In this document: one piece after another, positions 6,001 to 23,310 of the stretch | Position numbering within the stretch: the first letter of the stretch is position 1 | Layout: each line of letters opens with the position of its first letter | Assembly: GCF_014695725.1 (NCBI RefSeq) | Contig: NZ_JACJOU010000015.1 | Span: forward strand, 1 to 64,000 | Direction of reading: 5' to 3' | DNA from: Microcoleus sp. FACHB-672 | Lineage (GTDB): Bacteria > Cyanobacteriota > Cyanobacteriia > Cyanobacteriales > Oscillatoriaceae | DNA length: 64,000 nucleotides | Notes under the pieces: model-generated | Database searches by the model: none | Told to the model about the DNA's origin: nothing | What the model saw: the letters and a program-made list of their open reading frames with translations, nothing else | Position numbers and translations under genes: made by a program

Positions 6001-8411
6001 GCTATATGCTAGAGGACACTCAAGCGCCGGTGTTGCTTGCTCAAGAGCGGTTGGCTAAGACTTTGCCGGCACACAAAGCACACACCGTCTGCATCGATAC
6101 AGACTGGGAAGCCATCGCCCGTGAAAGTGAGGAAAATCCGCCGGTTGAAATTTCTTCACTTCACCTGGCCTATATAATGTACACCTCCGGCTCCACCGGC
6201 AAGCCAAAGGGTGTTTGCATTCCCCATCAAGGCGTAGTGCGGTTAGTCAGAAATACCGACTATGCCGACTTTAGTTCCGAAGAAGTCTTCCTGCACCAGT
6301 CATCAAGTGCCTTCGACCCCTCCACCTTGGAGATTTGGGGCAGTTTGCTCAATGGTGGCCGGCTGGTGATTGGCCCGCCTCACACCCCGTCTCTGGAAGA
6401 GTTAGGACAGGTGATTAAACAACACCAAGTTAGCACCCTGTTTCTCACAACCGGCCTGCTCCATGTGATGATTGATGAGCGGCTTGAGGATTTAAAAGGT
6501 GTACGTCAACTGTTAACCGGCGGAGATGTTTTCTCTGTCGCCCACGCTCAAAAGGTTGTGGAAACCCTCAAAGGATGCCGGATGATTAACGGCTACGGGC
6601 CAACCGAAAACTCAACCTATTCCTCTTGCTACACCGTCCCAGACGTTGATCAGATTGGAAATTCGGTTTCCATCGGGCGTCCGATTGCTAACAGTCCGAC
6701 TTATATTTTGGATCGCCATTTAAACCCCGTTCCCATCGGTGTCTGGGGTGAACTGTATGTCGGAGGTCCCGGCTTAGCGCGAGGCTATTGGAACCGGCCA
6801 GAATTGACGGCTGAACGGTTTATTCCCAACCCCTTCTTTAAAAAAGAGGGAGACTATGTAGACCGGCTCTACAAAACTGGCGACCTCGTCCGATACTTAC
6901 CGGATGGAAATATCGAGTTCCTGGGACGTATCGACAATCAAGTTAAAATTCGCGGTTTCCGCATTGAATTGGGCGAAATTGAAACCGCTCTCAACCAGCA
7001 TCCATCTGTACGCGAAACCATTGTGCTTGCCCACAAAGATGCAGCCGGTGACAAACGCTTAGTTGCCTATATCGCTCTTGAAGAAGGCGATGGGCCATCT
7101 CTCAATCTCACTTCTAACTCTTTACCCAACTCCCAACTGGGCACTCAAGACTCAGCACTCATTACAGACTTGCGTGGCTTCTTAAAAGAACAGCTGCCGG
7201 CATACATGATGCCCTCTGCCTTCGTGCTACTGGAAGCGTTTCCCCTAACTCCCAACGGAAAAATTGATCGCAGAGCATTGCCGGCACCTGAGTTTGATCG
7301 CTCCCAAGAGCAAGAAGCTTTTGCCGCACCCCGCGACACCTTAGAACTCCAGCTAACGCAAATTTGGGAGACTGTGTTAGGCATCGATTCTATCAGTATT
7401 CAAGACAATTTCTTTGATCTCGGAGGGCATTCGTTACTCGCTGTGCGCTTGTTAGATCGTGTGGAAAAGGTATTTGGCAAAACGCTTCCCCTGCCTACTC
7501 TATTCAGCGCCCCAACTGTTGAACAATTGGCAAATATTATCCGCGCTTCTGGGGTTGATTCTTCCGAAGAAGCGCTCGTGCCGCTGCGTTTAGGTAAAGA
7601 TAAGCCGCCTCTATTCTGTATTTACGGAATCTTGCTTTATCACGCCTTAGCACGCAATTTGGCGGACGATCAGCCGGTTTATGGAGTCTACCTGCAAGCC
7701 GAAGTAGATATCCTGAAAGCGGATAACCCTGAAAAACAGATATCCTCAATCAGTGTTACTTCCCTGGCGATTCAGTATCTCAAAGAAATCCGAAAACAGC
7801 AGCCGGTTGGCCCTTACTATCTAGCCGGTGAATCTTTCGGAGGCTTAGTCGCTTACGAGATCGCTCAGCAATTGCGTGCAGAAGGTGAACAAGTCGCTTT
7901 ACTTGCCTTATTTGATTCTTTTGCGCCGGGAAGTCAGAAAAAACCGCCCTTGCCGGTGCGAGTGACGCTTCATGTGCAAAACTTTTTCCGCCAAGGCTTT
8001 GCCTATGCTTTGGACAAAGTAAAGCGTCGGCTGAAATTTACCAAAAAGCAATTACTCAGACTGACTAGCCGGAGGTACGGGAAATTAGAGTCTAGCAGCG
8101 AGGGTTCTTTACCCAACACCCGCACGGATGCCGTTATCCGCGATCTGCGTGAACTCGTTCTTGAGAAGGCATCTGAAAATTATGCCCCCCAGCCTTACCC
8201 AGGCAAAATCACGTTATTCCGGGCGATGGATCGAAATGAGTTTGAGGCAACTTACACTGATCCTCAATTAGGTTGGGGTGAGTTTGCTGCCGGCGAGTTA
8301 GAAATTCACGATATTCCGGGCGATCACATCGGCATCCTTCAAGAGCCGAATGTAAAGGTTCTGGCAGAAAAGTTGAGTGTTTACTTACAAAAGCCAAATC
8401 CAATGAATTGA
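1..8411 (+). CDS. Nonribosomal peptide synthetase, (A)-PCP-C-A-PCP-C-A-PCP-TE, 5' end outside window
   Basis: Multimodular NRPS that adds at least two residues after the truncated first module and releases the product by a C-terminal thioesterase. Residues are counted from the TTG at base 6, but the frame is open to the left edge, so the true start lies outside. Order seen: end of an A domain (NEYGPTET at 39-46, YKTGDLARYL at 136, NGKVDRKAL near 245); PCP with FELGGHS (Ser303); C domain 363-800 with HHIIHDG at 495; A domain with YTSGSTGKPKG near 969; PCP near 1365; C with HHIVSDG near 1577; A with YTSGSTGKPKG near 2059; PCP near 2475; TE with GESFGG near 2610. No epimerase, methyltransferase or cyclase domain is visible. 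Pocket residues read by eye: first A (half only) I-G-E-V-G, recalling Asn-type codes; second D-S-A-S-I-A-E-V-W; third D-P-L-F-L-G-G-T-Y. Substrates are not assigned. A terminator follows the stop codon. Confidence 0.97.
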   Translation, partial: CLTSEKPAGQTRAFIIGGEALLGKTLSYWRTQSPQTRLINEYGPTETVVGCCIYEVPEDAELSGAMPIGNPIANTQLYILDKHLQAVPVGLQGELYIGGAGLARGYLNRPDLTAEKFIANPFFDTGKDSVFTSNRLYKTGDLARYLPDGTIEYLGRIDNQVKLRGFRIELGEIEAALSQHPAVRETAVIVREDVAGDKRLVAYVVPSEISDSALTKELRHFLEATLPHYMVPSAFVMLDVLPLTTNGKVDRKALPAPDASTALAETFVAPRSPLEAALTAIWADVLGLQQVGTQDNFFELGGHSLLGMQVISRLRNSYQVELPLRSLFEAPTVAELAQKVETAGEQELAAIAPAITPISRERNLPLSFAQEQLWFFGQLAPDTPVYNEPATIRLTDSINIPALENSLNEIIRRHEALRTTFAEVNGQPVQVVHPTLTLTLPVVNLQELPESEREAEALRLATEEARRPFDLEAGPLIQAILIQLDELDCRLFLTLHHIIHDGVSNYSVLAPELAALYEAFCAGNPSPLPELPVQYPDFAHWERQWLQASVLAPQLDYWHQQLANLPVLQLPTDRPRPAVQTFRGARQCVSLSKSLTEELKALSRRQGVTLYMTLLAAFKTLLHRYAGQDEIVIGTVTSNRSRPEIEGLIGYFLNTLVLRTDCSGNPSFQQLLERVREVTLGAYAHSDVPFEQLVQALQPERSLNQNPLFQVSFVLEPPMPALESGWTLSQLDVETGTAKLDLTLELDERPEGLIGRFEYSTDLFDDATITRMAEHFQILLEGIVANPDQQIQKFPILTESERQQLLFEWNSTDTNYLQNVCIHQLFEAQVEKTPDAVAVVIEGEHLTYQELNAKANKIAHYLRSLGIVPDTLVSICAERSLEMMAGILGILKAGAAYVPLDPAYPQDRLSFMLEDTQAPVLLTQSRLVEKLPQHNAQVICLDADWETISQHSDCNPNAAVSAESLAYTIYTSGSTGKPKGVPITHQNLVHSTFARTAYYKEPVKGYLLLSPFAFDSSVAGIFWTLCQGGSLVLPQDGTQADVLQLIELIEQNQVSHWLSLPSLYGLLLSIAKPQQLGSLRTVIVAGEACQKDLIERHRQRLPHASLFNEYGPTEGTVWSTVYDCGDLGENTLVPIGKPISNMQVYLLDSHLQPVPVGVAGELHIGGAGLALGYLNRPDLTAEKFIANLFSQDANSRLYKTGDLARYLADGNIEYLGRIDHQVKIRGFRIEMGEIEALLNSHPSVQETAVIAREDVPGDQRLVAYIAPSATASSEIIKELRRFLKERLPAYMVPSAFVLLEALPLTPNGKLDRKALPAPNHQKAEREEIFVAPRNPVEKILADILAQLLGLQEIGIHDNFFELGGHSLLAIQFISRLSDAFGIKIPLRCLFENPTVEGIAVAITENPQYSEIFGNLQIVETQIPKSLNTGLKLRPENISARGETDFLPLSFAQERLWFLEKLRPATAFYNIATTIKMAGRLNPNVLEQSLNEILRRHEALRSSFTTVDGQPVQAVAATVHLKLPIFDLRSLSETKREAETERLTVEEAQRPFDLAQAPLVRATLLQLSDTEHILLLTVHHIVSDGWSMGLLHREMLAIYQSLMAGEPSPLAEVPVQYPDFAVWHRQWLQTQEAGKASPLETQLSYWKQQLQGAPSALEMPTDRPRPPIQTFRGATHPVVLPKPLIEALNRLSRQTGASLYMTLLAAFNTLLHRYTAQEDIVLGTVTANRNWSEIENLIGFFVNTLLVRTDLSGNVSFRELLERVREVAFGAYAHQDLPFEKLVNELHPNRDLSQNPLFQVMFVFQKDGLETLEIPGLTLNFSNVHCGTAKFDLTLQLQETSSGVSGWFEYSTDLFDAGTIERMAKHFQTLLEGIVTNPEQRLSELPILTPDERHQMLFEWNDVYTDYPHDASIQALFEAQVELAPDAVALIFDTEQLTYRQLNAKANQVAHYLRSLGVGPDVLVSLCMERSLEMIIGILGILKAGGAYVPLDPAYPHERLSYMLEDTQAPVLLAQERLAKTLPAHKAHTVCIDTDWEAIARESEENPPVEISSLHLAYIMYTSGSTGKPKGVCIPHQGVVRLVRNTDYADFSSEEVFLHQSSSAFDPSTLEIWGSLLNGGRLVIGPPHTPSLEELGQVIKQHQVSTLFLTTGLLHVMIDERLEDLKGVRQLLTGGDVFSVAHAQKVVETLKGCRMINGYGPTENSTYSSCYTVPDVDQIGNSVSIGRPIANSPTYILDRHLNPVPIGVWGELYVGGPGLARGYWNRPELTAERFIPNPFFKKEGDYVDRLYKTGDLVRYLPDGNIEFLGRIDNQVKIRGFRIELGEIETALNQHPSVRETIVLAHKDAAGDKRLVAYIALEEGDGPSLNLTSNSLPNSQLGTQDSALITDLRGFLKEQLPAYMMPSAFVLLEAFPLTPNGKIDRRALPAPEFDRSQEQEAFAAPRDTLELQLTQIWETVLGIDSISIQDNFFDLGGHSLLAVRLLDRVEKVFGKTLPLPTLFSAPTVEQLANIIRASGVDSSEEALVPLRLGKDKPPLFCIYGILLYHALARNLADDQPVYGVYLQAEVDILKADNPEKQISSISVTSLAIQYLKEIRKQQPVGPYYLAGESFGGLVAYEIAQQLRAEGEQVALLALFDSFAPGSQKKPPLPVRVTLHVQNFFRQGFAYALDKVKRRLKFTKKQLLRLTSRRYGKLESSSEGSLPNTRTDAVIRDLRELVLEKASENYAPQPYPGKITLFRAMDRNEFEATYTDPQLGWGEFAAGELEIHDIPGDHIGILQEPNVKVLAEKLSVYLQKPNPMN

Positions 8412-8431
8412 GCCGGCTCCCTAATTCCCAT

Positions 8432-8468
8432 AAGACTGCACTGACATAACGCGGTGCAGTCTTTTTTT
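8432..8468 (+). terminator. Rho-independent terminator after the first NRPS
   Basis: A perfect 10-bp stem AAGACTGCAC / GTGCAGTCTT closes a 12-nt loop and runs directly into seven T residues, 20 bases after the NRPS stop codon. It marks the 3' end of that transcript, so the FkbH gene 1 kb further on probably has its own promoter. Confidence 0.9.
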
Positions 8469-9422
8469 ATCGGCTATGGTTTCGCGTAATTCCCACGCTG
8501 CCGGCTTAATATCGTGTCGCTTAGCGTACCCTGAATCAAACCCGATTTCTTCCCAGGGTACGCGAGTCAGGCACCTGAATGAGCTTTACAATTTGCAAGC
8601 CGGCACTCCTATGAGGGGGATCAAGGCGATGACTCGCTGTTCTATTTTGATGAAGTCTAACAACCCATTCAGGTTCAAACCGAAATTTTACTGAGTGGAA
8701 ATACAATTTCTGCTTCCAGATGCTAAAAAATGCTTTATAACCTCACAAATCTCAATAAACATTGAGGTATTCTAACTAAAACTTTGTTGCTGAACGATCA
8801 CAAAACAAAGAATGACTGCCGATTAAAAAGTCTGTGTAAAACCCAAAATTTTTACAGAGAAAGTATTGACTTTCGGCAAAGCTTTTTTAAGTAATTTTCA
8901 CAAGATTTGCAATTTTTAGGACAGTTATTGCTTGGGATGCCGGTGAAAAGCCCTGAAACTACCAAAAAATAATAATAACAACTTCAAGCCATGAATCATT
9001 TATACTGGGGATTAATACAAGGCTTGGTCTTAAAGTACGTGGGTAATACAGAGGCATAAAGCTACTGAGGCTTTTGTCAGGCAAATTATAGAAAATTTTT
9101 ATTTTTCTGCTTTGCCAAATCCACATTCTGCTCTAGTAGAGTCTGGAATAAAAATCCCCAAAGCCTTATGGGGCAATGAATTTAGTCGAGATAGACGCCT
9201 AGAAATTCATTAATATTTAATACAATATATTTAGGGAACCCCAATCTGCAAGGACAGAGAATCTGAGACGCTCCCAAAATAGCCAACCGTCGATTGAGCG
9301 GAATCGTAGAGCAAACTAGGCATTTTTGGATCTTCCTTAAGGAAGATTGCCTCAACAGAAAGATCAGGAATAGGTGGAAAGAGACTCGGAAAAGTTAAGC
9401 AAGCCAGGGAGAGGAAGTTCTG
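8469..9422. other. About 1 kb intergenic region upstream of the FkbH fusion gene
   Basis: No convincing coding sequence on either strand. The left part holds a 10-bp perfect inverted repeat (separate entry). The right part (about 8700-9250) is AT-rich with several poly-A and poly-T runs and is the likely promoter and leader of the next gene. No promoter boxes stood out enough to call. Confidence 0.5.
8524..8563. repeat. Perfect inverted repeat, 10-bp arms
   Basis: GCGTACCCTG is followed after 20 nt by its exact reverse complement CAGGGTACGC. There is no T-tract, so it is not an intrinsic terminator for either strand. It could be an operator or an RNA stem. It lies about 900 bp upstream of the FkbH fusion gene. 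Confidence 0.5.
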
Positions 9423-12400
9423 ATGCAATTAAAAGAGAAGGAAACGTCATCCCAACTGTCGGCAATCGCGATTGCAATTGCAGCGACATTTACGGCGGAG
9501 CCGGTGGGGGAATCTCTCGCTTTTTGGATGCAAGAACTAGATATCCCCTCTAAGATTGACTTCGCACCCTATAATCAGGTTTTTCAGCAACTGCTTGCTC
9601 CTGATAGCCTCTTGGCTCAAAATAACAATGGCATTAATGTTATTTTGGTGCGGATAGAAGACTGGGAACAGCAGGAAGAACGCGCACACACCGGCATGGC
9701 GCTGCAGCCGGCAGTCAAGCAACACATTGAACGAAATGTGGCGGATCTAGTGCGAATTCTAAAATCGGTGGGAGAACGTTCTGCAACCCCCCAACTCGTG
9801 TGCTTGTGTCCCGCATCACCGGCAGCCGTTGCAGACTCTAGCCGGCAGGCATTCTTCCAGCAGATGGAAGAAGTGATCGCCTTGGAATTAGACAGCGTCA
9901 GAAATATTTTCACCGTTACTCCTCAAGAATTCGCCGCTCTCTATCCCGTTACCAACTACTACGACGCGCACACAGATGAGTTGGGGCACATTCCCTACAC
10001 ACCGGCTTTCTTTGCCGCCCTGGGTTCCACTATCGCCCGAAAAATCGCCCGCCTGAGTCGCGCCCCTTACAAGGTAATTTTGCTCGACTGCGACCAAACT
10101 TTATGGAAAGGCGTTTGCGGCGAAGATGGCGCAATGGGCATTGAAATCGATACGCCCCGCAAAGTTCTGCAAGAATTCATGGTGGCGCAGCAACAAGCCG
10201 GCACGATTGTTGGGTTATGCAGCAAAAACATAGAAGCTGATGTTTTTGAAGTCTTTGATCGCCGGCCTGAAATGCCTCTGAAACGCGAACATATCGTTTC
10301 CTGGCGGATTAACTGGCAACCAAAATCAGAAAATATCAAATCCATCGCCGAAGAACTTAATTTGGGTTTAGATAGTTTCATCTTTATCGATGATAACCCG
10401 GTTGAATGTGCGGAAGTACAAGCCAATTGTCCAGAAGTTCTCACACTGCTGCTGCCTTCGGAAATCGATGAAATTCCTAGATTTCTTAATCACATTTGGG
10501 CATTTGACCGGCTGAAAGTTACCGAAGAAGACAAGAAGCGCACCGCCCTTTACAAACAAAATGCTGAACGCGAACGGTTTCGTAGTTCAGCCTTAACCCT
10601 GTATAATTTTTTGGAGGGATTGGGGTTAGAAATTGATATCTCTGAAATGGCAGCCCACCATCTTGCCAGAGTCGCCCAGCTTACGCAGCGAACCAATCAA
10701 TTTAACTTTACAACCATTCGCCGGTCAGAAAGCGACATTCAACAGCTATGCGAATCGGGACAATTAGAAGGTTTTGTTGTTGAAGTGCGGGATCGATTTG
10801 GCGATTATGGTTTAGTTGGGGCAATGCTTTTTGGCAGCAACCCCGAAGCGATCAATGTGGATACATTCCTGCTCAGTTGCCGCGCTTTAGGACGAGGTGT
10901 AGAGCATCGAATGCTGACAAAACTCGGAAAAATTGCTGAGGATCGCGGGCTTTGTCGTGTTGATATCGGTTATATTCCAACCCAAAAAAATCAGCCGGCT
11001 TTCAATTTTATCGAAAGCATCAGTTCAGTTAAAGAAGCGGTTGGGGATGCCGTGCATTATCTGGTGCCGGTGGAGGTTGCCGCAGCAGTCAGTTATCAAC
11101 CCTCAGCAGCCGAATCGAATGTAGCAGAAAATCCTGCAATTAAAAATGAAACCTCACCGCAAAATGCGTCGATGCGGTTGCAAGAAAAAGCCGTTCATTC
11201 TTCCTCGGCCTTTCACCGAACACTGATTCGGATTGCCAAGGAATTATATGATGCCGAGCAAATTTTGCAAGTGATTGAATCGCAAAAGCTGCGATCTAGG
11301 CCGGCAATTGAATCGAGTTACATTGCCCCCCGAACGCCAGTAGAGGAAGTGTTAGAAGGCATTTGGGCACGTGTTCTCGGCGTAGATAAAGTGGGTGTGG
11401 AAGATAACTTTTTCGAGCTGGGTGGGCACTCGCTATTGCTTACACAGCTAATTTCTCGCATTCGCGATAACTTCCAAATTGAGCTATCAATGCAGCGGTT
11501 CTTTGAAGCGCCAACGGTTTCCGGACTCGCTTTATTATTGGAAAAGAATCAAGCAGGGCCAATTAATGCCGAAGCGATTGCTGAACTTTTGAAAATGGTT
11601 AACCGGCTTTCAGAAGCAGAAGCGAAGGCAATGCTGGAAGCGAAAATGGGAACCTCAATCGTTGATGATTCGCTTTCTCGTAGCACTGAAAATTCAGATC
11701 TCAACAATCAAGACTTATCCGTCTATACTCAAGCTTATCGCATTGGTGATATCGAACGAGTTGCAATTCGCGCCGGCCAAGAGTTAGTTTACTCAAGAAA
11801 CAGTCGTAGAAGTCAACTTCTAAACGCTGATGTTGTGCGGATGCTGTGTGAATGCCGGCAATTTAAAACCCTAGACGAACACGCACAAAATATCTGCCGT
11901 GAATTGGGAGTAAATCTTGCAGCAATTAAAACTCAGCTAGCAGGATTTGTCGAAGTCGGCTTTTTAATTTCCCAGCAGCAGCTATTGGAAAAAATCGAGC
12001 CTGATAAACAGATTCCAGTCAAATCAGTTGAGGAATTAACCGCTCATTATCCCATTCAAAATGACAACTTAAGAAGTCATTCCTTTACGCCTGTAAAAAC
12101 CCACACCAATGGGAAACACTCGGCACACAACAAGGCGACAAATAGCACAGTTGCCTCCGTGGGGATGGTGACGTGTAACCGCATAGAAGGTGCAAAACGC
12201 GCCCTGACAAGCTACATCGAAAATAGCCAACAACACGGCAGAACGAATAACTTTGTCCTGATGGATGATTCTGCTAGCTCTCAAACGCGAGATGGCTATC
12301 GGCAAATGCTACGCTCGCTTAAAACGCAGTATGGGGCGGAGATTTTTTATGCCGGCTTAGAGGAAAAACAGCGATTTGCTCAATCATTAACTCAAAAGGG

Positions 12401-13670
12401 AGGGTTGCCACAAGACGTTGTCAATTTTGCCTTGTTTGATGTCGAAAAATCCGGCGCATCTCCGGGTGCCAACCGCAATGCTTTGACGTTGCATACTGCC
12501 GGCGACATCATTTTTAGCGCGGATGATGATACGGTATGCAAGTTAGTCCCTTCTCCAGAATTGCAGGAAGGCTTAACTTTAACTGCCGGCACTGATCCTT
12601 CCGATTACTGGGTGTTTGATGACCGTGAAACTGCCTTAAAATCGGTGAAGTTTGCAGACGAAGACCTTTTAGCTTTGCATGAGCAGTTATTGGGTAAAAA
12701 TGTTGGTGCGATTCTTGAGACTGCCGGCACTAGCGACACCGTCAATATCAACCCAATCGATACTCAATTTATGCGCCGCTTAGAAGCCGGTGCAGGCAAA
12801 GTTTTAGTCACGTTTAACGGATTGGTTGGAGACTGCGGGTGGGGTGCGCCTTTCGGTTACTGGGGTGCGCCTTTGGGCTATCTTTTGCTAGCCGGTAAAT
12901 CCCACGAACGATTAGTGAAATCAGAGTCAGGATACCGCAATGCACTGACGAGTCGGGATATTTTAAGAGTCACCAATCGACTAGGAATTAGCGATGACAG
13001 TTTCGGCATGACCACATTTGTGGGATTAGATAATCGAGGAGTGCTGCCGCCATTTCTTCCGGTACGACGCGGGCAAGATTTAATCTTTTCCAATACTGTT
13101 TGGAAGTGTTTTAAAGACAGCTTTTTCGGACACTTACCTTGGGCATTATTACATGAGCCGGTGGAACAACGGAAATTCTGGGCAGGGGAAATTTTCAGAA
13201 CCGCTTCTGGTTTTGATACCGCTAAGTTAATTGTAGAATGCATTAAATCTTGCGAATTCGGGCCGGCACCGGCAGATGAAAAAGAAAGACTGCGTTCCTT
13301 GGGTAAACACCTAATAGAATTAGGTTCAATGCCCCTAGCCGGTTTTGAAGAGTTTCTAAAATTGCAAGTTTGGCGTACCAGCAGTTCCTTTATTTCCCTA
13401 GCAGAAGAACATCTGCGAATTTCTGGAGAGTCGCCGGCATATTGGGCAAATGATGTTAAAAAATACACCGATTTGTTATGTCAATCTCTAACACGAGATG
13501 ATTATTTCATTCCCTTGGATTTAGTTCAGGGACGCAATTTAGATGAAGCGCGACACCTAGCCCAGCGTTTGGTACTTAAATTTGGTCAGTTGTTATACTG
13601 GTGGCCAGAAATGATTGAAGTTACCAAAGAATTGCGCCATCACGGGGAAAGATTGGGAACACTAATTTAG
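9423..13670 (+). CDS. FkbH-like loading domain / carrier protein / PqqD-RRE-like / GT-A glycosyltransferase-like fusion
   Basis: Residues 1-205 resemble the N-terminal part of FkbH proteins. The HAD-type FkbH core follows with LDCDQTLWKG (Asp222, Asp224) and FIDDNP near 321, then an acyltransferase-like part to about 550. In the family this unit dephosphorylates 1,3-bisphosphoglycerate and loads a glyceryl unit on a carrier protein, and FkbH domains load glyceric acid in some cyanobacterial cyanopeptolin synthetases. A PCP follows with DNFFELGGHS (phosphopantetheine Ser670). Residues 770-860 have the pattern of a PqqD/RRE winged-helix peptide-binding domain. From 908 on there is a GT-A-like fold: SVGMVTCNR, VLMDDS, GASPGANRNA, and GDIIFSADDD with an acidic triad at 1034-1036. 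The last 300 residues are unassigned. The start is ATG with GGAGAGGAAG upstream. FkbH and PCP are firm; the RRE and glycosyltransferase calls are inferred from motifs. Confidence 0.88.
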   Translation: MQLKEKETSSQLSAIAIAIAATFTAEPVGESLAFWMQELDIPSKIDFAPYNQVFQQLLAPDSLLAQNNNGINVILVRIEDWEQQEERAHTGMALQPAVKQHIERNVADLVRILKSVGERSATPQLVCLCPASPAAVADSSRQAFFQQMEEVIALELDSVRNIFTVTPQEFAALYPVTNYYDAHTDELGHIPYTPAFFAALGSTIARKIARLSRAPYKVILLDCDQTLWKGVCGEDGAMGIEIDTPRKVLQEFMVAQQQAGTIVGLCSKNIEADVFEVFDRRPEMPLKREHIVSWRINWQPKSENIKSIAEELNLGLDSFIFIDDNPVECAEVQANCPEVLTLLLPSEIDEIPRFLNHIWAFDRLKVTEEDKKRTALYKQNAERERFRSSALTLYNFLEGLGLEIDISEMAAHHLARVAQLTQRTNQFNFTTIRRSESDIQQLCESGQLEGFVVEVRDRFGDYGLVGAMLFGSNPEAINVDTFLLSCRALGRGVEHRMLTKLGKIAEDRGLCRVDIGYIPTQKNQPAFNFIESISSVKEAVGDAVHYLVPVEVAAAVSYQPSAAESNVAENPAIKNETSPQNASMRLQEKAVHSSSAFHRTLIRIAKELYDAEQILQVIESQKLRSRPAIESSYIAPRTPVEEVLEGIWARVLGVDKVGVEDNFFELGGHSLLLTQLISRIRDNFQIELSMQRFFEAPTVSGLALLLEKNQAGPINAEAIAELLKMVNRLSEAEAKAMLEAKMGTSIVDDSLSRSTENSDLNNQDLSVYTQAYRIGDIERVAIRAGQELVYSRNSRRSQLLNADVVRMLCECRQFKTLDEHAQNICRELGVNLAAIKTQLAGFVEVGFLISQQQLLEKIEPDKQIPVKSVEELTAHYPIQNDNLRSHSFTPVKTHTNGKHSAHNKATNSTVASVGMVTCNRIEGAKRALTSYIENSQQHGRTNNFVLMDDSASSQTRDGYRQMLRSLKTQYGAEIFYAGLEEKQRFAQSLTQKGGLPQDVVNFALFDVEKSGASPGANRNALTLHTAGDIIFSADDDTVCKLVPSPELQEGLTLTAGTDPSDYWVFDDRETALKSVKFADEDLLALHEQLLGKNVGAILETAGTSDTVNINPIDTQFMRRLEAGAGKVLVTFNGLVGDCGWGAPFGYWGAPLGYLLLAGKSHERLVKSESGYRNALTSRDILRVTNRLGISDDSFGMTTFVGLDNRGVLPPFLPVRRGQDLIFSNTVWKCFKDSFFGHLPWALLHEPVEQRKFWAGEIFRTASGFDTAKLIVECIKSCEFGPAPADEKERLRSLGKHLIELGSMPLAGFEEFLKLQVWRTSSSFISLAEEHLRISGESPAYWANDVKKYTDLLCQSLTRDDYFIPLDLVQGRNLDEARHLAQRLVLKFGQLLYWWPEMIEVTKELRHHGERLGTLI

Positions 13671-13813
13671 CGAAGAAGAAGCATAGGGCATTGCAGAGAG
13701 AGGTGCTGAGTTGATTTATGTGTGCATACTTGTTGCAAAACCCTATAGTTTCAGCTAATTTTTATCAGCGTTAATCGGCATCTTAATCAATTGTTCATCA
13801 AGAAGGATTCAAA

Positions 13814-16800
13814 ATGGGTGAGTCTATCCAAGATATTGCAACGCTTTCTCCCACTAAGCGGGCACTTTTTGAGTTGCTACTCAAAGAAAAGGGTTTAAAT
13901 GTCTCTAGAATCCAAAAAATTCTTCGGTGCAGTGAGAGTCAATCTTACCCACTTTCTTTTGCTCAGCAACGGTTGTGGTTTCTCGACCGATTAGAGCCGG
14001 GAAATCCTGTTTATAATGAAACAACCACCGTTCGTCTCACTGGCAGACTTAACCTTGTTGCGCTGGAATTGAGTTTGAATGAAATTGTCCGCCGGCATGA
14101 AATTTTGCGGACGACTTATGCGCTTGTGGGTGCAGAACCCGTTCAATACATTTCGCCTTCACAAACAATTTCTTTATCAGTAACCGATTTGAGAAACTTG
14201 CCCGTAGAAGAACGCGAACGCTCTTTCTGGCAGTTATCCACTCAAAAAGCACAGCAGCCTTTCGACTTAGAAACCGGGCCGTTACTTCGGGCAAATTTAT
14301 TTCAATTAGACGAAGAATCCTATGTATTAGGGCTAATCATACATCATATCATTACAGATGGTTGGTCTAGTAGGATACTAATTCGAGAAATGACGGCACT
14401 TTATGAATATTATAGTGCCGGCAAACCTTCCCTTTTGCCCGAACTTTCGATTCAATATATAGACTTCGCCGGCTGGCAGCGCGAATGGATGCAGGGTGAA
14501 GTTTTAAACCAGCAACTTTCGTATTGGAAAAAACACTTAGGCGGACGGCTGCCGGTGCTTGATTTGCCAACAGATCGCCCTCGCCCGCAGGTTCAAACAT
14601 TTCGCGGCGCACGTCAATCTTTAACCCTTTCCCCTGAATTAAGCACCGCATTGGCTACATTTAGCCGCGCTGAAGGTGTCACTTTATACATGACGCTGCT
14701 AGCAGCATTCCAAACATTGCTAATGCGGCTAAGCGGACAAGACGATATTATTGTTGGATCTCCGATTGCCGGTCGTAATAGAGCAGAAATTGAAGGACTC
14801 ATTGGATTTTTTATCAATACCTTAGTTCTGCGTACCAATCTTGCCGGCAATCCAACCTTTAAAGAAGTTTTGCAGCGAGTACGCCAAGTTGCTTTAGACG
14901 CTTATGCTCATCAAGACTTGCCTTTTGAAAAATTAGTTGAAGAACTACAGCCCGAAAGAGATTTAAGCCGCACGCCGCTATTTCAAGTATTTTTTAATAT
15001 GCTCAGTTTTGAGCAAAATAGCATTGAAATATCAGGATTAACTGTAGAAACCTTACCCCGTCCCGAACTCGAATCAAAGTTTGATATAACCCTATATGCA
15101 CGAGAAAATCCTGAACGAACTCAGCTAGAATTTGTTTATAATGCCGATTTATTTGAGCCGGCACGCATGGTTGAAATGCTGGCACAACTCCAGCATATTT
15201 TGGCTCAAGTTGTCAAGAAACCAGAAGAAAAGATTGCAGAAATTTCTCTGGTAACGTCTTCAGTTCAAGCACGCTTACCGAATCCACATCAAACGCTCAA
15301 TGATTCTTGGGAAGGCGCTGTTCACACTCAGTTTTCCCAACAGGCAAACCGGGTGGGAAATAGCACAGCCATAATTGATCGGCAAGGAAGTCTGACTTAT
15401 TCAGAACTCGATAAAATCAGTAACCAACTCGCCGATTATCTGCAAAAACATGGCATTGGTTCTCAGGATGTTGTCGCGATTTACGCGCATCGTAGCGCCC
15501 CAATCGTCGTAGCATTGCTAGGAATTCTGAAAGCGGGCGCAGCATTTGTGATTCTGGATGCCAAATATCCCGCCGAACGGTTGATTGATTGTGTTAAGCT
15601 AGCTCAGCCGAAGGGGTGGCTGCAAATGTCAGCCGGTGGAAACCTTCCCGATTCTTTAGAAACCTTTATTGGGACATTATCAACCCAGTGCCGGTTGAAT
15701 CTACCTGAATCAGCCGCTCAAATCGGTGAACTGTTAAAGGATTATTCAACAGAAAATACCCACACAGAAATTAACCCCGATGACTTAGCCTATATCGCCT
15801 TCACCTCCGGCTCAACCGGCAAACCAAAAGGCATCTTAGGCACTCACAAACCGCTTTCCCACTTCCTGCAATGGCACGCCCAAACCTTTAATTTAAATGA
15901 ATCAGATCGATTCAGTGTGCTATCTGGACTCGCTCACGATCCCTTGCTGCGAGACATTTTCACACCCCTGTGGTTAGGCGCAACCCTCTGCATTCCCACC
16001 CCAAAAGAAATTGGCACTCCAGGCAAGTTAGGTGAGTGGATGAAGCAACAGCAAATCACCATCAGCCACCTCACACCGGCAATGGGACAGCTCTTAACAG
16101 AAACTTCCCAAACCCAACAACTAACCAACCTGCGTTATGCCTTCTTCGGAGGTGATATCCTCAGCATTCGTGATGTTGAAAAATTGCGAAATATAGCCCC
16201 AAATGTTACTTGCGTCAACTTCTATGGAGCCACAGAAACTCCGCAAGCAATGGGGTATTACATCGTTTCGAATCAAAAACTAGAAGAACATAGAAACACA
16301 GCAACCCATCAACCAGAAAATTCCCTAATTCCTCAATCTCGCACTCAATCCCGAATTCCTTTGGGACAGGGCATCGAAGATGTGCAACTGCTAATTTTAA
16401 ATTCCTCTCACAGACTCGCAGGAATTGGAGAAATTGGAGAAATATACATCCGCACATCTTATTTATCTCAAGGATATTTGGGAGATGAATCGTTAACTAC
16501 ATCGCGATTTATCACCAATCCATTTACAAATATCCCCTCAGATCGGCTCTATAAAACCGGAGACTTAGGACGCTACTTATCCGATGGAAATATATCCGTT
16601 TCCGGTCGCGCTGATAATCAAATAAAAATCCGGGGCTTCCGTATTGAGCCGGGGGAAATTGAGACAGTATTATGCCAGCATACTAATGTTCGACAAAGTG
16701 TCGTGATAGCCCGTGAAGATATACCGGCAGAGAAACGTTTAGTTGCTTATCTTGTTCCTATTCCTGAGTTTGGAACGGTTGACTCAGCACTCAGCACTCA

Positions 16801-18037
16801 GCAATCTGAACTACTCAGTGAATTGCGTGATTTTGTCAAAGAAAAGCTGCCAGATTACATGGTGCCATCAGCATTTGTGATGCTGGAAAGTGTGCCATTA
16901 ACGCCCAATGGCAAAATCGACCGCAAAGCATTACCGGCACCCGAATACCGCAGCGAATCTGAAAATTCTTTCATTGCACCCCGCGATGATTTAGAACATC
17001 AATTAATCGAAATTTGGGAAACCTTGATTCATGTTAAACCGATTGGTGTCAAGGATAACTTCTTTGAACTAGGGGGACACTCGCTGCTAGCGTTGCGTCT
17101 GTTCAACCAAATTCAAGAAAAATTCGATAAACTCCTGCCTCTAGCAACCCTTTTCCAAGCACCAACGGTTGAGCAACTCGCAAATATTTTACGCTCTGAA
17201 GGGTCGTCAGTGCCCATCCGTTCACTTGTACCTATTCAGCCAAACGGTTCTAAAACGCCTTTATTCTGCATTCATGCGATTGGCGGGAACGTTCTTTCTT
17301 ACCAAGGTGTAGCGGCTTATTTGAGCAAGGATCAGCCGGTTTACGGGTTGCAAGCGCGGGGAGTGGATGCTCAACAGACTCCCCACACGCGGGTTGAGGA
17401 CATGGCATCTGACTATATCAAGGAAATCCGCACAGTTCAGCCTGAAGGGCCATATCTGTTAGCCGGCCACTCGTTAGGAGGAATTATCGCCTTTGAGATG
17501 GCTCAGCAGTTAGTCCGGGGCGGCCACAAAGTCGGTTTGGTAGCAGTTTTCGATACCTTCAGTCCCCTGGCATTTGGCAAAGGCACTCCTCCCAAATCTT
17601 ATCAATTTGACATTCACCGGCTGAATCTTTCACGACTCAATCGCAAAGATAAGGTACTTTACATTACAGATCGCGTGTACTGGAAAATTGAGGGGTTCAT
17701 CCAAAAAATTTGGAAAAAGGTCTACAAATTAACAGGTCGAACTTTGCCCGATCCGCTACCCGAACATTTCAAAAAAATTGAAATTGCAAATCGTGTTGCT
17801 GCCACCAATTATGTCCCCCAAATTTATCCGGGACGCGTCACCCTTTTACGGGCAATAGAAAGGCCAACTACCAAGTATTATGAACCCTTGTTAGGCTGGG
17901 GTGAAATCGCGGCAGCCGGCGTGGAAGTTCAAGAGATTCCAGGGCATCACAAAACCATCATTTTAGAACCTCGTGTTCGCTGCTTAGCTGAAACATTGCA
18001 AGCTTGCCTAGAAAGGGTGCAAGCAGAGGAAAGATAA
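13814..18037 (+). CDS. Nonribosomal peptide synthetase, C-A-PCP-TE, with Lys2-like adenylation domain
   Basis: Single-module synthetase that should condense one residue and release the product. An N-terminal segment of the LSPTKRALFELLLKEKG type (docking/linker) leads into a C domain (PLSFAQQRLWFLDRL at 46; HHIITDG near 177). In the A domain, FTSGSTGKPKG lies near 663. The usual FDxS motif is replaced by GLAHDPLLRDIFTPL (near 706) and the A5 motif reads NFYGATETPQAMGYY, both as in alpha-aminoadipate reductases (Lys2). By-eye pocket residues are D-P-R-H-F-G-F-Q-A. The PCP has FFELGGHS near 1085 and the TE has AGHSLGG (Ser1220) with a late EIPGHHK. The start is ATG with AAGAAGGA upstream, 143 bp after the FkbH fusion. 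The second TE at this locus means either a split pathway or a TE working in trans. The substrate is not assigned. Confidence 0.95.
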   Translation: MGESIQDIATLSPTKRALFELLLKEKGLNVSRIQKILRCSESQSYPLSFAQQRLWFLDRLEPGNPVYNETTTVRLTGRLNLVALELSLNEIVRRHEILRTTYALVGAEPVQYISPSQTISLSVTDLRNLPVEERERSFWQLSTQKAQQPFDLETGPLLRANLFQLDEESYVLGLIIHHIITDGWSSRILIREMTALYEYYSAGKPSLLPELSIQYIDFAGWQREWMQGEVLNQQLSYWKKHLGGRLPVLDLPTDRPRPQVQTFRGARQSLTLSPELSTALATFSRAEGVTLYMTLLAAFQTLLMRLSGQDDIIVGSPIAGRNRAEIEGLIGFFINTLVLRTNLAGNPTFKEVLQRVRQVALDAYAHQDLPFEKLVEELQPERDLSRTPLFQVFFNMLSFEQNSIEISGLTVETLPRPELESKFDITLYARENPERTQLEFVYNADLFEPARMVEMLAQLQHILAQVVKKPEEKIAEISLVTSSVQARLPNPHQTLNDSWEGAVHTQFSQQANRVGNSTAIIDRQGSLTYSELDKISNQLADYLQKHGIGSQDVVAIYAHRSAPIVVALLGILKAGAAFVILDAKYPAERLIDCVKLAQPKGWLQMSAGGNLPDSLETFIGTLSTQCRLNLPESAAQIGELLKDYSTENTHTEINPDDLAYIAFTSGSTGKPKGILGTHKPLSHFLQWHAQTFNLNESDRFSVLSGLAHDPLLRDIFTPLWLGATLCIPTPKEIGTPGKLGEWMKQQQITISHLTPAMGQLLTETSQTQQLTNLRYAFFGGDILSIRDVEKLRNIAPNVTCVNFYGATETPQAMGYYIVSNQKLEEHRNTATHQPENSLIPQSRTQSRIPLGQGIEDVQLLILNSSHRLAGIGEIGEIYIRTSYLSQGYLGDESLTTSRFITNPFTNIPSDRLYKTGDLGRYLSDGNISVSGRADNQIKIRGFRIEPGEIETVLCQHTNVRQSVVIAREDIPAEKRLVAYLVPIPEFGTVDSALSTQQSELLSELRDFVKEKLPDYMVPSAFVMLESVPLTPNGKIDRKALPAPEYRSESENSFIAPRDDLEHQLIEIWETLIHVKPIGVKDNFFELGGHSLLALRLFNQIQEKFDKLLPLATLFQAPTVEQLANILRSEGSSVPIRSLVPIQPNGSKTPLFCIHAIGGNVLSYQGVAAYLSKDQPVYGLQARGVDAQQTPHTRVEDMASDYIKEIRTVQPEGPYLLAGHSLGGIIAFEMAQQLVRGGHKVGLVAVFDTFSPLAFGKGTPPKSYQFDIHRLNLSRLNRKDKVLYITDRVYWKIEGFIQKIWKKVYKLTGRTLPDPLPEHFKKIEIANRVAATNYVPQIYPGRVTLLRAIERPTTKYYEPLLGWGEIAAAGVEVQEIPGHHKTIILEPRVRCLAETLQACLERVQAEER

Positions 18038-18090
18038 GGAGTTAAATCTTTAATTCCCACTTCTGATTTCTTAAATTCAACCCTGTTTGT

Positions 18091-18384
18091 ATGACAGCTT
18101 CTAAAAATGTCTTAGTCTGCCAAAACCGCACCTGTCGCAAACAGGGTGCGGCGGCGGTACTCGCCAGTTTTCAATCCCACGCCCCAGATGATGTTGCCGT
18201 CACCGGCAGCAGTTGTTTGGGACAATGTGGGAATGGGCCAATGGTGCTCGTCACACCCGATGAGGTTTGGTACTGCCATGTGCGCCCAGAAGAAGTGCCG
18301 GTGGTGGTTGAGCGACATTTGCAGGCGGGGAAGCCGGTGAAGGCAATGCTTTATCCCAAGTTTCATCCTCAGTCGTTGAAGTAA
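18091..18384 (+). CDS. (2Fe-2S) ferredoxin domain protein, thioredoxin-like fold
   Basis: A 97-residue protein starting VLVCQNRTCRKQGA, with a second cysteine pair in CLGQCGNGP. Four cysteines in the C-x4-C ... C-x3-C arrangement are typical of thioredoxin-like [2Fe-2S] ferredoxins, also found as domains of NuoE/HoxE and cobalt-pathway proteins. It probably carries electrons in the cytoplasm; its partner is not shown. It begins 53 bp after the NRPS stop with no terminator seen between, so read-through from the NRPS is possible, but similar small ferredoxins occur widely in cyanobacteria and a role in the peptide pathway is unproven. Confidence 0.9.
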   Translation: MTASKNVLVCQNRTCRKQGAAAVLASFQSHAPDDVAVTGSSCLGQCGNGPMVLVTPDEVWYCHVRPEEVPVVVERHLQAGKPVKAMLYPKFHPQSLK

Positions 18385-18465
18385 AAGTGTAAAAAACATG
18401 ATTTGACTATCTTTAAAAGCATCGATTGGTTACAAAAAAAGTAGCGAATTAAGGGAAATAAAAAA

Positions 18466-19278
18466 ATGGATGATGAATTTTCCTCGTGGCTTTGTCATGT
18501 TAAATTACTGGTTTGTAATCCAGATAAAAACTCCTGTCAGTCGGACTTAGTCTATTGCTCATTTCCTGCAAAAGCCTATGATCATTTACTGGGTTTTCAG
18601 AATGAAAAATTAAAAATAATTGCTATTTTTAATTTTCATCCTATGAATCATTGTGCTATCGCAGAGATTGATGAACCTGAACAGATTAAAGCCTCAATAA
18701 AGGTTTTAAGGGTTGAAGATGATTTGTCTAATTTTAGAATATGTGCTAAGTGGTTTATTAGAAGATTTAATTTGGTGGCATATTATGGGTTTGACGTAGA
18801 AACCGTAATGCAAATCGCAGCTAACAAACAAGTGGATATAATTTTAGTCAATACAGGTTATTCGGGTAAATATAGACAAGTGGATTGGATGGAGTATATC
18901 CGAATGTTAAAATCCAACCCGGAAACCGCACAAATTCCCGTTATTTTAACAATGTGGGGTCAAGTCATGGTAGGTGACCGGGACAGATACTTAGAAGAAA
19001 GTGGTGCTGATGATGCCATTCGGATGGAGCCTGCTAGTTGGGAACCCCTTGTCGAAAAAATAAAATATAACCTCCCTACGGACGATCCCACTCTAAACAC
19101 GAGAATTAATTTAAGAAAAAGATTTAGCGGTTCCCGGACAATTAAAGTACAAAAAGAAAAAGAATCAGTATTAGACTTTCTAGCCTTTAAAATTTTCCAG
19201 CTCATAATATTGACAGCTTCTCTATTTGTTCCTTTAATTGATGCTATTTCCGGACGCGACAAGTCATCTAGGAAATGA
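18466..19278 (+). CDS. Degenerate response-regulator receiver protein
   Basis: A 270-residue protein. Residues 1-70 are unrecognised. Residues 77-205 have a CheY-like layout: acidic pair in VLRVEDDLSN, a beta strand VDIILVNTGYSG, then VILTMWG and ADDAIRMEP. The strand that normally ends in the phosphorylated Asp ends in Asn, and the conserved Lys of the K-P motif is replaced (RMEP). Phosphorylation is therefore unlikely and a pseudo-receiver role is inferred. The C-terminus has a basic stretch and a hydrophobic segment (FQLIILTASLFVPLI) that could associate with the membrane. No output domain is recognisable. AAGGGA upstream supports the ATG start. Confidence 0.75.
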   Translation: MDDEFSSWLCHVKLLVCNPDKNSCQSDLVYCSFPAKAYDHLLGFQNEKLKIIAIFNFHPMNHCAIAEIDEPEQIKASIKVLRVEDDLSNFRICAKWFIRRFNLVAYYGFDVETVMQIAANKQVDIILVNTGYSGKYRQVDWMEYIRMLKSNPETAQIPVILTMWGQVMVGDRDRYLEESGADDAIRMEPASWEPLVEKIKYNLPTDDPTLNTRINLRKRFSGSRTIKVQKEKESVLDFLAFKIFQLIILTASLFVPLIDAISGRDKSSRK

Positions 19279-19655
19279 TCAAATAACTTATTTAATTCTA
19301 ACTTATGGGTTGACTCATTTGTCACAACCATATTGCCTAGGGTGAACACAAAGTTCAGCAACTCACCTTTATCATTAACGACCAGATGCACTCTTGAAAC
19401 CAAAGAAGCAGTCAACCGGCCAGTTGACTTCCCACTGAGGTTTAAAGGTTTGACAAAAGTTATCGACACTGAACATGGGACGGGCAGATGGATGAGAATT
19501 TAGCACTTTTAGGCTATCTATTTTGCCCTTTCTTGTCTCGAACTGATGTTAAAAATATGACTGAATTTGTTGCAAAAACACAAATATCGTGAATTTTTAA
19601 CCGCAGATTCCGCAGATAAATTATTTATGTTTATCTGCGGTTCAAATAAAAAAAC
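19279..19655. other. Intergenic region between convergent genes
   Basis: No supported gene. It contains the palindrome listed separately and otherwise AT-rich sequence. An open frame here on the minus strand overlaps the receiver gene and shows no protein features. Confidence 0.5.
19610..19640. repeat. Palindrome CCGCAGATAAA / TTTATCTGCGG
   Basis: Perfect 11-bp arms with a 9-nt AT loop, preceded by a partial direct copy (CCGCAGATT). The motif resembles the CACAGATAAACGCAGAT sequence near 28.74 kb in this window. Its place between convergent genes would suit a terminator, but no T-tract follows on either strand. Confidence 0.6.
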
Positions 19656-20714
19656 TTACGATTCCCCGCCCTTTAAAAAAGGCACATCCACAACTTCCCC
19701 TTCAATATCTCCAACGTGCACTTTCAAACCGGCACCCCCAGCTTTTGTACGGATATAAGCTAGACCAAATGGCCCTTGAGGGGTTTCTGTATAACTCGTG
19801 AGGGTTCCAACTTTCTCCTCATCTAGCGTCACTACAGTTCCGGGTTCTACCCTAGCACTTAGTCGAACGCCCCAAAGTTGCTGCTTCACGCCTTTGTAGG
19901 TTTCCAGACGCGCAATTGTTTCTTGACCGATATAACAACCTTTAGTGAAGGAAAGTGTTTGCAATAAACGCGCTTCTAGCGGATTGTAATCTTCTGTGAG
20001 TTCCCGATCTGGTGTGGGGCGTCCCTGTTCCACTCTCAACTGTTCCCAACATTGTTCACCCAGAGGAACCGCACCGGCAGCGGTTAAAGTCTCCCACACG
20101 GCGGCTGCGTTGCCTGCTTCGACAATTAGGGTGTAGCCGGCAACTGCTAAGCCACTGCCCACAGCCACACGCACTTGCGCGTCCCCTAGGGGTACTATCT
20201 GGTGGGTGCCATAAGGTTGGCCGGCAAGGGCACCGGCACCCAACTGATCCAGTAAAGCATCGCTGTTTGGCCCCATTAAACTGAATGCAGCCGTTTTTTC
20301 CGTCACATCCGTTAATTTCACCTTATCGGCAAAAAAGATATAGCGATCAAGCCACTGCATTAACTTGGAACGGCGATGGGGCGAGACAAGCAGCAGCACC
20401 GCATCTTCCGTAAGATATGCGGTTGCTAAGTCAATCGTGCGGGCAGTGGAGGTGACAAAAACCGTATCACAACCCTGTCCGGGCTTAAGGCTGTTGAAAT
20501 CGTTTGTACTTTGATTGTGCAAAAATCGTAGCCGGTCAGCATCGCTAACTTGAATGCGTCCCCAGTGGGTGAGATCGCACAAAGCCACTGCTTCCCGCAC
20601 CGCGTTGAGGGCGGCTGCATCGTTGCCAAAACTAACCGGCACCGGCACGCCAGAGGCCGATTCCTCAAAGGTTGCCCCACCGGCTGTTTGAAGTTCTTGT
20701 AATTCTTGAATCAT
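19656..20714 (-). CDS. ygfZ: YgfZ/GcvT-like folate-binding protein
   Basis: A 352-residue protein of the YgfZ/CAF17 family, which is related to the glycine-cleavage T protein, binds folate and supports assembly or repair of certain iron-sulfur enzymes. The family signature is present as KGCYIGQETIARL near residue 253, with an N-terminal barrel part (REAVALCDLTHWGRIQV) and the C-terminal segment GPFGLAYIRTKA. Length is as expected and the ATG start is clean. It is separated from the next minus-strand gene upstream by a 21-bp tandem repeat, so an operon is not obvious. Confidence 0.9.
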   Translation of the reverse strand: MIQELQELQTAGGATFEESASGVPVPVSFGNDAAALNAVREAVALCDLTHWGRIQVSDADRLRFLHNQSTNDFNSLKPGQGCDTVFVTSTARTIDLATAYLTEDAVLLLVSPHRRSKLMQWLDRYIFFADKVKLTDVTEKTAAFSLMGPNSDALLDQLGAGALAGQPYGTHQIVPLGDAQVRVAVGSGLAVAGYTLIVEAGNAAAVWETLTAAGAVPLGEQCWEQLRVEQGRPTPDRELTEDYNPLEARLLQTLSFTKGCYIGQETIARLETYKGVKQQLWGVRLSARVEPGTVVTLDEEKVGTLTSYTETPQGPFGLAYIRTKAGGAGLKVHVGDIEGEVVDVPFLKGGES

Positions 20715-22660: not shown

Positions 22661-23032
22661 ATGATGTTTGACCTTAATACCGTTTCTGAATTCTCCCGCA
22701 ATCACTGCATCAGCATCTGTGCGTTTCTGGTGCCGGCCAATCTGGTGGCAACCCTGGCTACAATCGTTTTAACCGCCCTGCGTCGCCCTAAAGCACAGGT
22801 GTGGAAAGCGGCAGCCATTGCTGCCATTCCCGCTCTGGTGATGGTGTTTCATGTGATTACTTGGTTTATGATTGGTGTGGTCATGGCTCCCACCTACATC
22901 CTGCTATGGCTTGCAGCGACCTGTCTGAGCATTAATTTATGGGCGATTTCCCATCCGCAAAGTATGGTTCGACTGCTCAAATGGGCATGGGGGATGATTT
23001 CACCGGCATTTCAACGTCGGCATCTCACATAG
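22661..23032 (+). CDS. Hypothetical membrane protein, 123 residues
   Basis: Three or four hydrophobic helices are visible: ICAFLVPANLVATLATIVL, AAAIAAIPALVMVFHVITWF and VVMAPTYILLWLAATCLSIN. A basic tail ends in RRHLT. No family recognised. It is followed 14-35 bp later by another small membrane protein on the same strand, suggesting a two-gene unit. Start is ATG (two adjacent ATG codons). Confidence 0.75.
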   Translation: MMFDLNTVSEFSRNHCISICAFLVPANLVATLATIVLTALRRPKAQVWKAAAIAAIPALVMVFHVITWFMIGVVMAPTYILLWLAATCLSINLWAISHPQSMVRLLKWAWGMISPAFQRRHLT

Positions 23033-23067
23033 AGTAATTCTTTTGTGTGAAATTTCAGTTAGAAGTA

Positions 23068-23310
23068 ATGAAAGATAAATTTCTTGATTGGCTAAATCTG
23101 TTTTTAGTGGCGGATGTCTTCCTGGTGTTGTTTAGCTTCGCTTGGCTGGCAGCTGCGGTGATCGGGCGCGGGGCTGGGGTTCCGCTAGGACTCGATTTAT
23201 GGTACAAGCTTTGGCAGCCGGTTTTTACTCCAGCCATCGGGATTTTGATGGGCGGTGCGATTCTTAGTGGCATTATCAGTCAGATTACTAAGCGGCTGAA
23301 ATCTAACTAA
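23068..23310 (+). CDS. Hypothetical membrane protein, 80 residues
   Basis: Two hydrophobic segments, LVADVFLVLFSFAWLAAAVI and TPAIGILMGGAILSGIISQI, separated by a Trp-rich loop (LDLWYKLWQPVF), with a basic end. No family recognised. ATG at 23068 with AGAAG upstream is chosen; a GTG at 23047 would add seven residues. Probably co-transcribed with the preceding membrane protein gene. Confidence 0.65.
   Translation: MKDKFLDWLNLFLVADVFLVLFSFAWLAAAVIGRGAGVPLGLDLWYKLWQPVFTPAIGILMGGAILSGIISQITKRLKSN

Follow-up and report, generated by a model that had tools for sequence, protein, structure and literature searches.

A cyanobacterial FkbH-carrier protein with predicted RRE-like and GT-A-like domains: a candidate glyceryl-loading module with a built-in glycosyltransferase

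A single gene at a nonribosomal peptide synthetase (NRPS) locus of the cyanobacterium Microcoleus sp. FACHB-672 encodes an FkbH domain, a carrier domain (peptidyl carrier protein, PCP), a predicted RRE-like domain (RRE, the recognition element of pathways for ribosomally synthesized and post-translationally modified peptides, or RiPPs) and a predicted glycosyltransferase (GT) domain of the GT-A type, in this order. The gene occupies positions 9423..13670 of the plus strand of the window, i.e., the whole 64,000-nucleotide stretch that was analysed (contig NZ_JACJOU010000015.1, positions 1 to 64,000), which is the start of a contig in a 6.37 Mb genome. We propose, with a probability of roughly 0.45, that the protein is a glyceryl-loading module with its own glycosyltransferase, by which a sugar would be added to the carrier-bound glyceryl group. 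It is the FkbH-carrier-RRE-GT order that appears to be new; FkbH domains in NRPS systems and RRE-glycosyltransferase fusions were already known.

The gene is a single open frame of 1415 amino acids, from ATG to stop. After an N-terminal region (residues 1-216), the FkbH domain spans residues 217-535 (10071..11027, plus strand) and matches TIGR01686 of NCBIfam at 9.4e-90, with 301 bits against a cut-off of 146.65; its HAD-type motifs DCDQT, SK, K and DD are intact and are kept in all eight family genomes. The carrier domain covers residues 643-704 (11349..11534, plus strand; PF00550 of Pfam, 7e-18), and its attachment serine, located in GGHSL (667-671), is likewise kept in 8/8. The RRE-like domain lies at about residues 771-858 (11733..11996, plus strand), and the GT-A-like domain with its helical C-terminal extension at residues 908-1415 (12144..13667, plus strand). 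The four domains thus stand in the order given by the original prediction, FkbH and carrier by profile, RRE-like and GT-A-like by predicted fold, and the motifs that it had listed in the GT part are all present: VLMDDS at 945, GANRNA at 1015 and SADDD at 1032. A chance frame was rejected, because the four parts align in one stop-free frame of 1373-1524 residues in 8/8 family genomes, and the four-part protein is confirmed as real.

Profile searches returned no match above the curated cut-offs of Pfam and NCBIfam for residues 730-1415, and no O-methyltransferase (OMT) or sulfotransferase (ST) domain was matched by Pfam in the fusion protein. The best PHROGs value for the fusion was 0.025, i.e., chance level; PADLOC gave nothing at 0.01, and Rfam nothing at the gathering score in window positions 8000-20000. 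Searched by sequence, the PDB gave at best 0.46 with the single protein and 0.16 with the RRE profile, and none up to 1 with the whole profile. The fold of residues 761-1415 was modelled by AlphaFold2 from an alignment of 30 rows, made up of seven of the eight family fusions, 12 RRE-GT proteins, two GT-only proteins and nine stand-alone relatives, with a mean pLDDT (predicted local distance difference test) of 87.1 and a pTM (predicted template modelling score) of 0.87. With eight close rows only, the mean pLDDT was 42.4, which gave a mere hint for the RRE part. In the 30-row model, the first 98 residues form four strands, three helices and a short strand, with blocks of pLDDT 89-93 in the RRE-like domain; they are followed by a low-confidence linker and then by a Rossmann domain of GT-A-like type, which carries a helical tail.

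The whole 761-1415 model was then used as a Foldseek query against the PDB, and the best 50 of 884 matches were considered. The top three were TruD (2.7e-3), mannosyl-3-phosphoglycerate synthase (probability 1.00) and TigE, and the 50 also included an 88-residue TbiB1 chain with leader peptide (probability 1.00, 83 columns, target TM score 0.58); TruD, TigE and TbiB1 we take to be RRE-holding proteins. The 50 were mostly GT-A enzymes, among them GlfT2, chondroitin polymerase and glycogenin, with a few others (nucleotidyltransferase, stress protein). In the viral library the best match was a GT2-like phage protein (8.0e-4). On these models, residues of about 771-858 are predicted to adopt an RRE-like winged fold (beta3-alpha3), and residues 908-1415 are predicted with high confidence to have a GT-A fold, GT2-like. 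A DNA-binding regulator was rejected as the identity of the RRE-like part, RRE enzymes being among the matches of the whole-model search. The fold search foreseen for the C-terminal part therefore agreed with the prediction by AlphaFold2 and Foldseek, with no profile above cut-off. The term PqqD/RRE-like, originally applied to this module, held in its RRE-like half by predicted fold and lost its PqqD half: the window protein has no PqqD match in Pfam, and the fusion is absent from the results of a PF05402 (PqqD) search in 40 genomes. For the GT part, PF00535 (glycosyl transferase family 2) had no match in the window protein and stayed below cut-off in 3/3 fusion relatives tested (15.4-19.8 bits vs 23.3), as well as in 3/10 RRE-GT proteins of other phyla. 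All seven of the tested partial matches of the RRE-GT profile carry PF00535 above cut-off (L135, L136, L137, L141, L156, L163, L165); at the level of sequence, these partial matches are a link to GT2.

The residues followed in the GT part were DDS 948-950, GANRN 1015-1019, DDD 1034-1036, R1216, D1219 and H1244. In the 30-row alignment, DDD, R1216 and H1244 are kept in 30/30 rows and D1219 in 29/30; DDS and GANRN are variable in the remote rows. From what is known of GT-A enzymes, DDD is presumably the DXD motif and H1244 the C-terminal metal-site histidine, with an acceptor-site aspartate assumed likewise. The ratio of nonsynonymous to synonymous substitution rates (dN/dS) in five pairs ranged over 0.05-0.18 in the FkbH core and 0.03-0.39 in the carrier; the RRE-like part had 0.15-0.34, the GT part (908-1300) 0.07-0.31 and the linkers 0.17-0.88. 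All domains are under constraint, i.e., purifying selection, which is weaker in the RRE-like part than in the FkbH core and the GT part in 5/5 pairs. Conservation relative to the window protein followed the same pattern, the RRE part falling below the FkbH core and the GT part in 7/7 comparisons and below the carrier in 6/7.

The fusion is confined to a small set of genomes, as far as the order is concerned. The RRE-GT part was found in 8/60 genomes of the relatives search, own genome included, and in all eight family genomes examined, each with the four parts in one frame. Order-wide, the RRE-GT profile at E 1e-20 matched 8/349 genomes, which are exactly the eight family members, and none of the other 341, at most three first-look candidates being scored per genome. 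The nearest named record found, with records very near the window possibly excluded, was Microcoleus vaginatus WJT46-NPBG5, in which the GT part is 96% identical. Across the phylum, the GT part as query retrieved six genomes besides the own among 386, with a divergent relative of about 490-510 amino acids, and the RRE-GT profile matched 17/386, own included. The other 16 of these matches are short and partial, consisting of stand-alone relatives, ordinary GT2 proteins where tested, and an unclassified 639-amino acid protein (G141). A scan of the genome collection yielded 45 loci, of which five were family fusions, one was an RRE-GT protein of Latescibacterota (L048) and the rest had the GT part only; since it used two short patterns, it must miss many loci, and 11 of the 45 frames were inspected.

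Beyond the cyanobacteria, the RRE-GT pair was met in three phyla. One of 64 Latescibacterota genomes matched; the metagenome-assembled genome of this phylum that contains L048 has two RRE-GT copies, in frames of 635 and 637 residues, and one copy has a UDP-GlcNAc 2-epimerase gene and two genes for glycosyltransferases as neighbours. In Pseudomonadota, the phylum of Sphingomonas leidyi (L057), 17/398 genomes matched and two had a full RRE-GT (L168:6495-8462, plus strand; L169:6494-8530, plus strand), both adjoining glycosyltransferase family 2 genes. In Myxococcota, to which the Myxococcales record L070 belongs, 12/282 genomes matched. An RRE-like N-terminal part was recognized by alignment and by eye in seven of the 12 (L105, L106, L107, L108, L109, L111, L114), with weak similarity to that of the window (15-32% in the six genomes aligned), and the remaining matches were GT-only, stand-alone or cut. 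No FkbH was detected by NCBIfam in 10/10 full RRE-GT frames of these phyla, a test set that did not contain L169 and the second G612 copy; in two of the ten, weak FliH and nucleotidyltransferase matches lay far below cut-off. No carrier was found by Pfam in ten sequences, mostly trimmed to the RRE start. Given this occurrence without detected FkbH or carrier, the RRE-GT pair looks, from sequence, like an older unit, to which FkbH-carrier seems to have been joined later, in the Microcoleus/Oscillatoria lineage.

Some side observations on these relatives may be recorded here. Conserved stand-alone relatives of the GT part, of about 490 amino acids, occur in Nostocales, sphingomonads, one Rhodospirillales record and one Myxococcales record (L037-L042, L053, L057, L061, L070 and others); the two that were tested have no match in Pfam above cut-off. 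Two Trichormus plasmid records have a distant GT-only match at 1e-3, and viral contigs gave pattern matches, none of which was confirmed as a relative with the GT part. One Myxococcota RRE-GT protein (L106:285-2513, minus strand) has a long Gln/Glu/Arg/Gly-rich repeat inserted in its RRE-like part. At four Myxococcota loci, the neighbour of the RRE-GT gene encodes a secreted protein with a short Cys plus Gly/Ser tail, namely L118:1851-3500, L120:9174-11144, L122:9661-11418 and L108:3256-4236, all on the minus strand; the tails are NCGSGSG, CAVGSGSV, CTSGSGV and CGGGGGG, and the N-termini in L118, L120 and L122 are lipoprotein-like by eye. In a crude control, 5/114 called genes matched the tail pattern, which had been set after inspection of the data: these were the L118, L120 and L122 proteins, one contig-cut frame at a distance of two genes from a GT gene, and a further one elsewhere, the L108 protein not being among the called genes. 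On these sequences, a tail-directed glycosylation system in Myxococcota is possible.

In the window, the fusion is followed by the gene of a partner NRPS of 1407 amino acids (13814..18037, plus strand), with condensation (C), adenylation (A), carrier and thioesterase (TE) domains by Pfam, which bears out the original assignment to an NRPS locus. A homologue of this C-A-PCP-TE protein is found in 8/8 family genomes, and this co-occurrence ties the functions of fusion and partner. The two genes adjoin in seven (G000, G001, G002, G003, G005, G006, G007; the partner of G007 is cut within its A domain by the contig end). The general rule that FkbH-carrier units are normally followed by C or KS (ketosynthase) domains holds here in that a C domain able to follow the carrier sits in the next protein in 7/8, and elsewhere in G004. 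As to whether homologues always lie beside NRPS genes, the four-part order is kept in 8/8 and the partner adjoins in 7/8, the exception being G004, with its partner at a separate locus. In the latter genome, just before the partner NRPS, a stretch (L196:14356-14553, minus strand) matches the fusion in its last 66 residues only, the intact fusion being on a different contig; this may be taken as a sign of duplication or rearrangement. The A domain of the window's partner has an HDPLLRD stretch, with no FDxS there by eye. It is labelled Lys2-like only tentatively, because the 671.5 bits of its match to TIGR03443 (aminoadipate reductase) fall short of the cut-off, 1030.1, and this model matched the upstream NRPS too.

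Taken together, the proposed course of events would be as follows. As in its family, FkbH would take 1,3-bisphosphoglycerate and place a dephosphorylated glyceryl group on the adjacent carrier. By binding a peptide segment that belongs to the carrier/linker or to the partner, the RRE-like domain would keep the carrier facing the GT. The GT-A-like domain would glycosylate a hydroxyl of the glyceryl while the latter is on the carrier, with a nucleotide sugar as donor. This unit would pass to the partner, C-(A)-PCP-TE, which would join one further acid in most genomes and release the product. What is established of this mechanism is the domain order, the predicted folds, the conserved residues of catalytic type, purifying selection and the conserved partner. 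A precedent is offered by the synthetases of suomilide (BslA/AerB), varlaxin (AerB) and dysinosin (DysB), in which, according to the accessible parts of the sources, FkbH-PCP loaders carry OMT and ST domains in the same protein (PMC10143770, PMC13122637, PMC6520454). As described there, these systems share with the fusion the cyanobacterial NRPS setting, FkbH plus PCP and domains in cis for tailoring of the glycerate; they differ in having OMT and ST where the fusion has RRE-like and GT-A-like domains, and for the latter the C domain lies in the protein that follows. On this reading, the place of the sulfotransferase in these related loaders would be taken by the GT-A-like domain. An acceptor of similar nature is known from the mannosyl- and glucosyl-3-phosphoglycerate synthases, GT-A enzymes that act on glycerate and that ranked 2 (probability 1.00) and 42 (probability 0.38) among the best 50 of 884 Foldseek matches; however, they are free enzymes using free 3-phosphoglycerate, and their similarity to the fusion is weak and possibly one of general fold only.

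A number of observations weigh against glyceryl glycosylation on the carrier. The position of the phosphoglycerate glycosyltransferase among the Foldseek matches may reflect nothing beyond the general GT-A fold. Among the best 50 Foldseek matches in the PDB, none reached 1e-3 and the whole-model TM scores were low, so that the RRE-like and GT-A-like folds are supported but distant; moreover, the Foldseek table is silent on the part of the model to which each match aligns. By hhalign, the RRE part compared with 23 cyanobacterial PqqD sequences gave a probability of 0.9% (E 0.058), which is not significant, and 'RRE-like by fold' is therefore the limit of the evidence. An RRE-like domain is normally a pointer to a peptide substrate. 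Three other phyla have the RRE-GT pair with no FkbH detected, so that the GT acceptor need not be glyceryl. Finally, the partner is not uniform: that of G005 (L028:17161-19722, plus strand) is C-PCP-TE, with no A domain and with HPLVADF instead of HHxxxDG in its C domain, and that of G004 (1393 amino acids, C-A-PCP-TE) is at a locus apart from the fusion.

Other explanations of the same protein were weighed alongside. The GT may act on the product, either once it is released or while it is bound to the partner; the fusion would then serve as a tether only, with the sugar placed on a finished glyceryl-X compound. This would be in line with the RRE-GT proteins of other phyla that have no detected carrier, and also with the aeruginosin-type pathways, for which the accessible parts of the sources propose separate glycosylating enzymes, which in the suomilide scheme act on the released product (PMC13122637; AerI in PMC10143770). 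Nonetheless, the carrier fusion is kept in 8/8 genomes, including G004 with its partner elsewhere, and we consider late action unlikely. Alternatively, the RRE-like domain could have given up its recognition function and serve for docking to the partner NRPS, with the GT still glycosylating the glyceryl or the product. Its lower conservation, described above, would fit such a role, as would a similar N-terminal segment before the C domain in the three partners compared (G000, G003, G005); such segments, however, are common among NRPS proteins, and a docking role appears rather improbable. It was also considered that the RRE-GT part might be a passenger in decay, without function, which could account for its lack of a Pfam match above cut-off and for the second place in G004 matched only by the last 66 residues. 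The dN/dS of the GT part, well under 1 in five pairs, and the preservation of DDD, His and Arg in 30/30 rows led to its rejection; it is disfavoured as extremely improbable.

The original prediction had also suggested a mixed NRPS/RiPP step, in which the RRE would bind a ribosomal peptide or a protein tail and the glyceryl, the sugar or both would be placed on that peptide. The predicted RRE-like fold agrees with this, as do the secreted, lipoprotein-like Cys plus Gly/Ser-tail proteins beside RRE-GT at some Myxococcota loci, although that pattern is post hoc and its control crude; the partner, on the other hand, is an NRPS. A precursor was sought by comparing 115 frames, both small and larger, on either side of the fusion with the loci of seven other family genomes, in stretches that are incomplete and with a short contig in G007. 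No precursor-like small frame matched in all eight. Frames in the 1 kb upstream of the fusion matched in G001 and G002 only, with none matching outside the genus, bar those overlapping the fusion start. Downstream, many frames matched in G003, G005 or G006, mostly overlapping or facing longer genes in conserved gene order, and neither the G004 nor the G007 stretch had a match on this side. The suggestion thus received no direct support, and a ribosomal substrate seems rather improbable. There is, lastly, a small chance that a RiPP-type recognition domain brings a peptide, either ribosomal or a synthetase segment, to the in-line GT, the carrier-bound glycosyl-glyceryl being formed in this way and attached.

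Among the downstream small frames, three are likelier to be separate genes: a 2Fe-2S ferredoxin-like protein of 97 amino acids by Pfam (18091..18384, plus strand), matched in the loci of G001, G002, G003 and G006; a 123-amino acid frame (22661..23032, plus strand); and an 87-amino acid frame, membrane-protein-like by eye (23047..23310, plus strand). The latter two have no Pfam match and are both kept in G001, G003, G005 and G006. On the other side of the fusion, at a distance of about 1 kb, an NRPS gene cut by the contig start (6-8411, plus strand) has longer frames in G001 and G002; it ends in a thioesterase by Pfam and is therefore likely a separate pathway. It is followed by a terminator-like hairpin of 12 pairs plus a T run (8432..8463, plus strand), from a consensus scan that found 15 sites vs 13.3 in shuffles. 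This hairpin suggests that transcription of the fusion begins separately, as a unit of its own.

With regard to novelty, no description of FkbH-carrier ahead of RRE-GT was found in the open literature, subscription papers and supplementary files lying outside the search; the original statement that no system of this four-part order had been described was upheld to this extent. It must be narrowed for the RRE-GT pair, which occurs elsewhere without detected FkbH, and RRE-glycosyltransferase fusions are in print as unassigned (RRE-Finder; PMC7470986, PMC12710340). In the accessible parts of these two sources, the fusions combine RRE and glycosyltransferase in one protein, as here, with no mention of FkbH or carrier, and they are set apart from the window fusion by this description alone. 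Similarly, in the accessible part of another source, the vioprolide and cystomanamide NRPS have FkbH in place of A, with glyceryl on the T domain (PMC8949500); FkbH loading in an NRPS is common to these and the window fusion, and no fused glycosyltransferase is mentioned for them.

The fusion offers a testable protein for the unassigned RRE-glycosyltransferase fusions, since its probable acceptor is attached to the enzyme itself and can be followed by mass spectrometry. If a peptide is recruited to the in-line GT, RiPP recognition and NRPS thiotemplate chemistry would be joined in one polypeptide. If glyceryl glycosylation on the carrier is true, the family would have assembly-line glycosylation at the loading step, performed by a domain in cis that lies beside a fold known from RiPP pathways.

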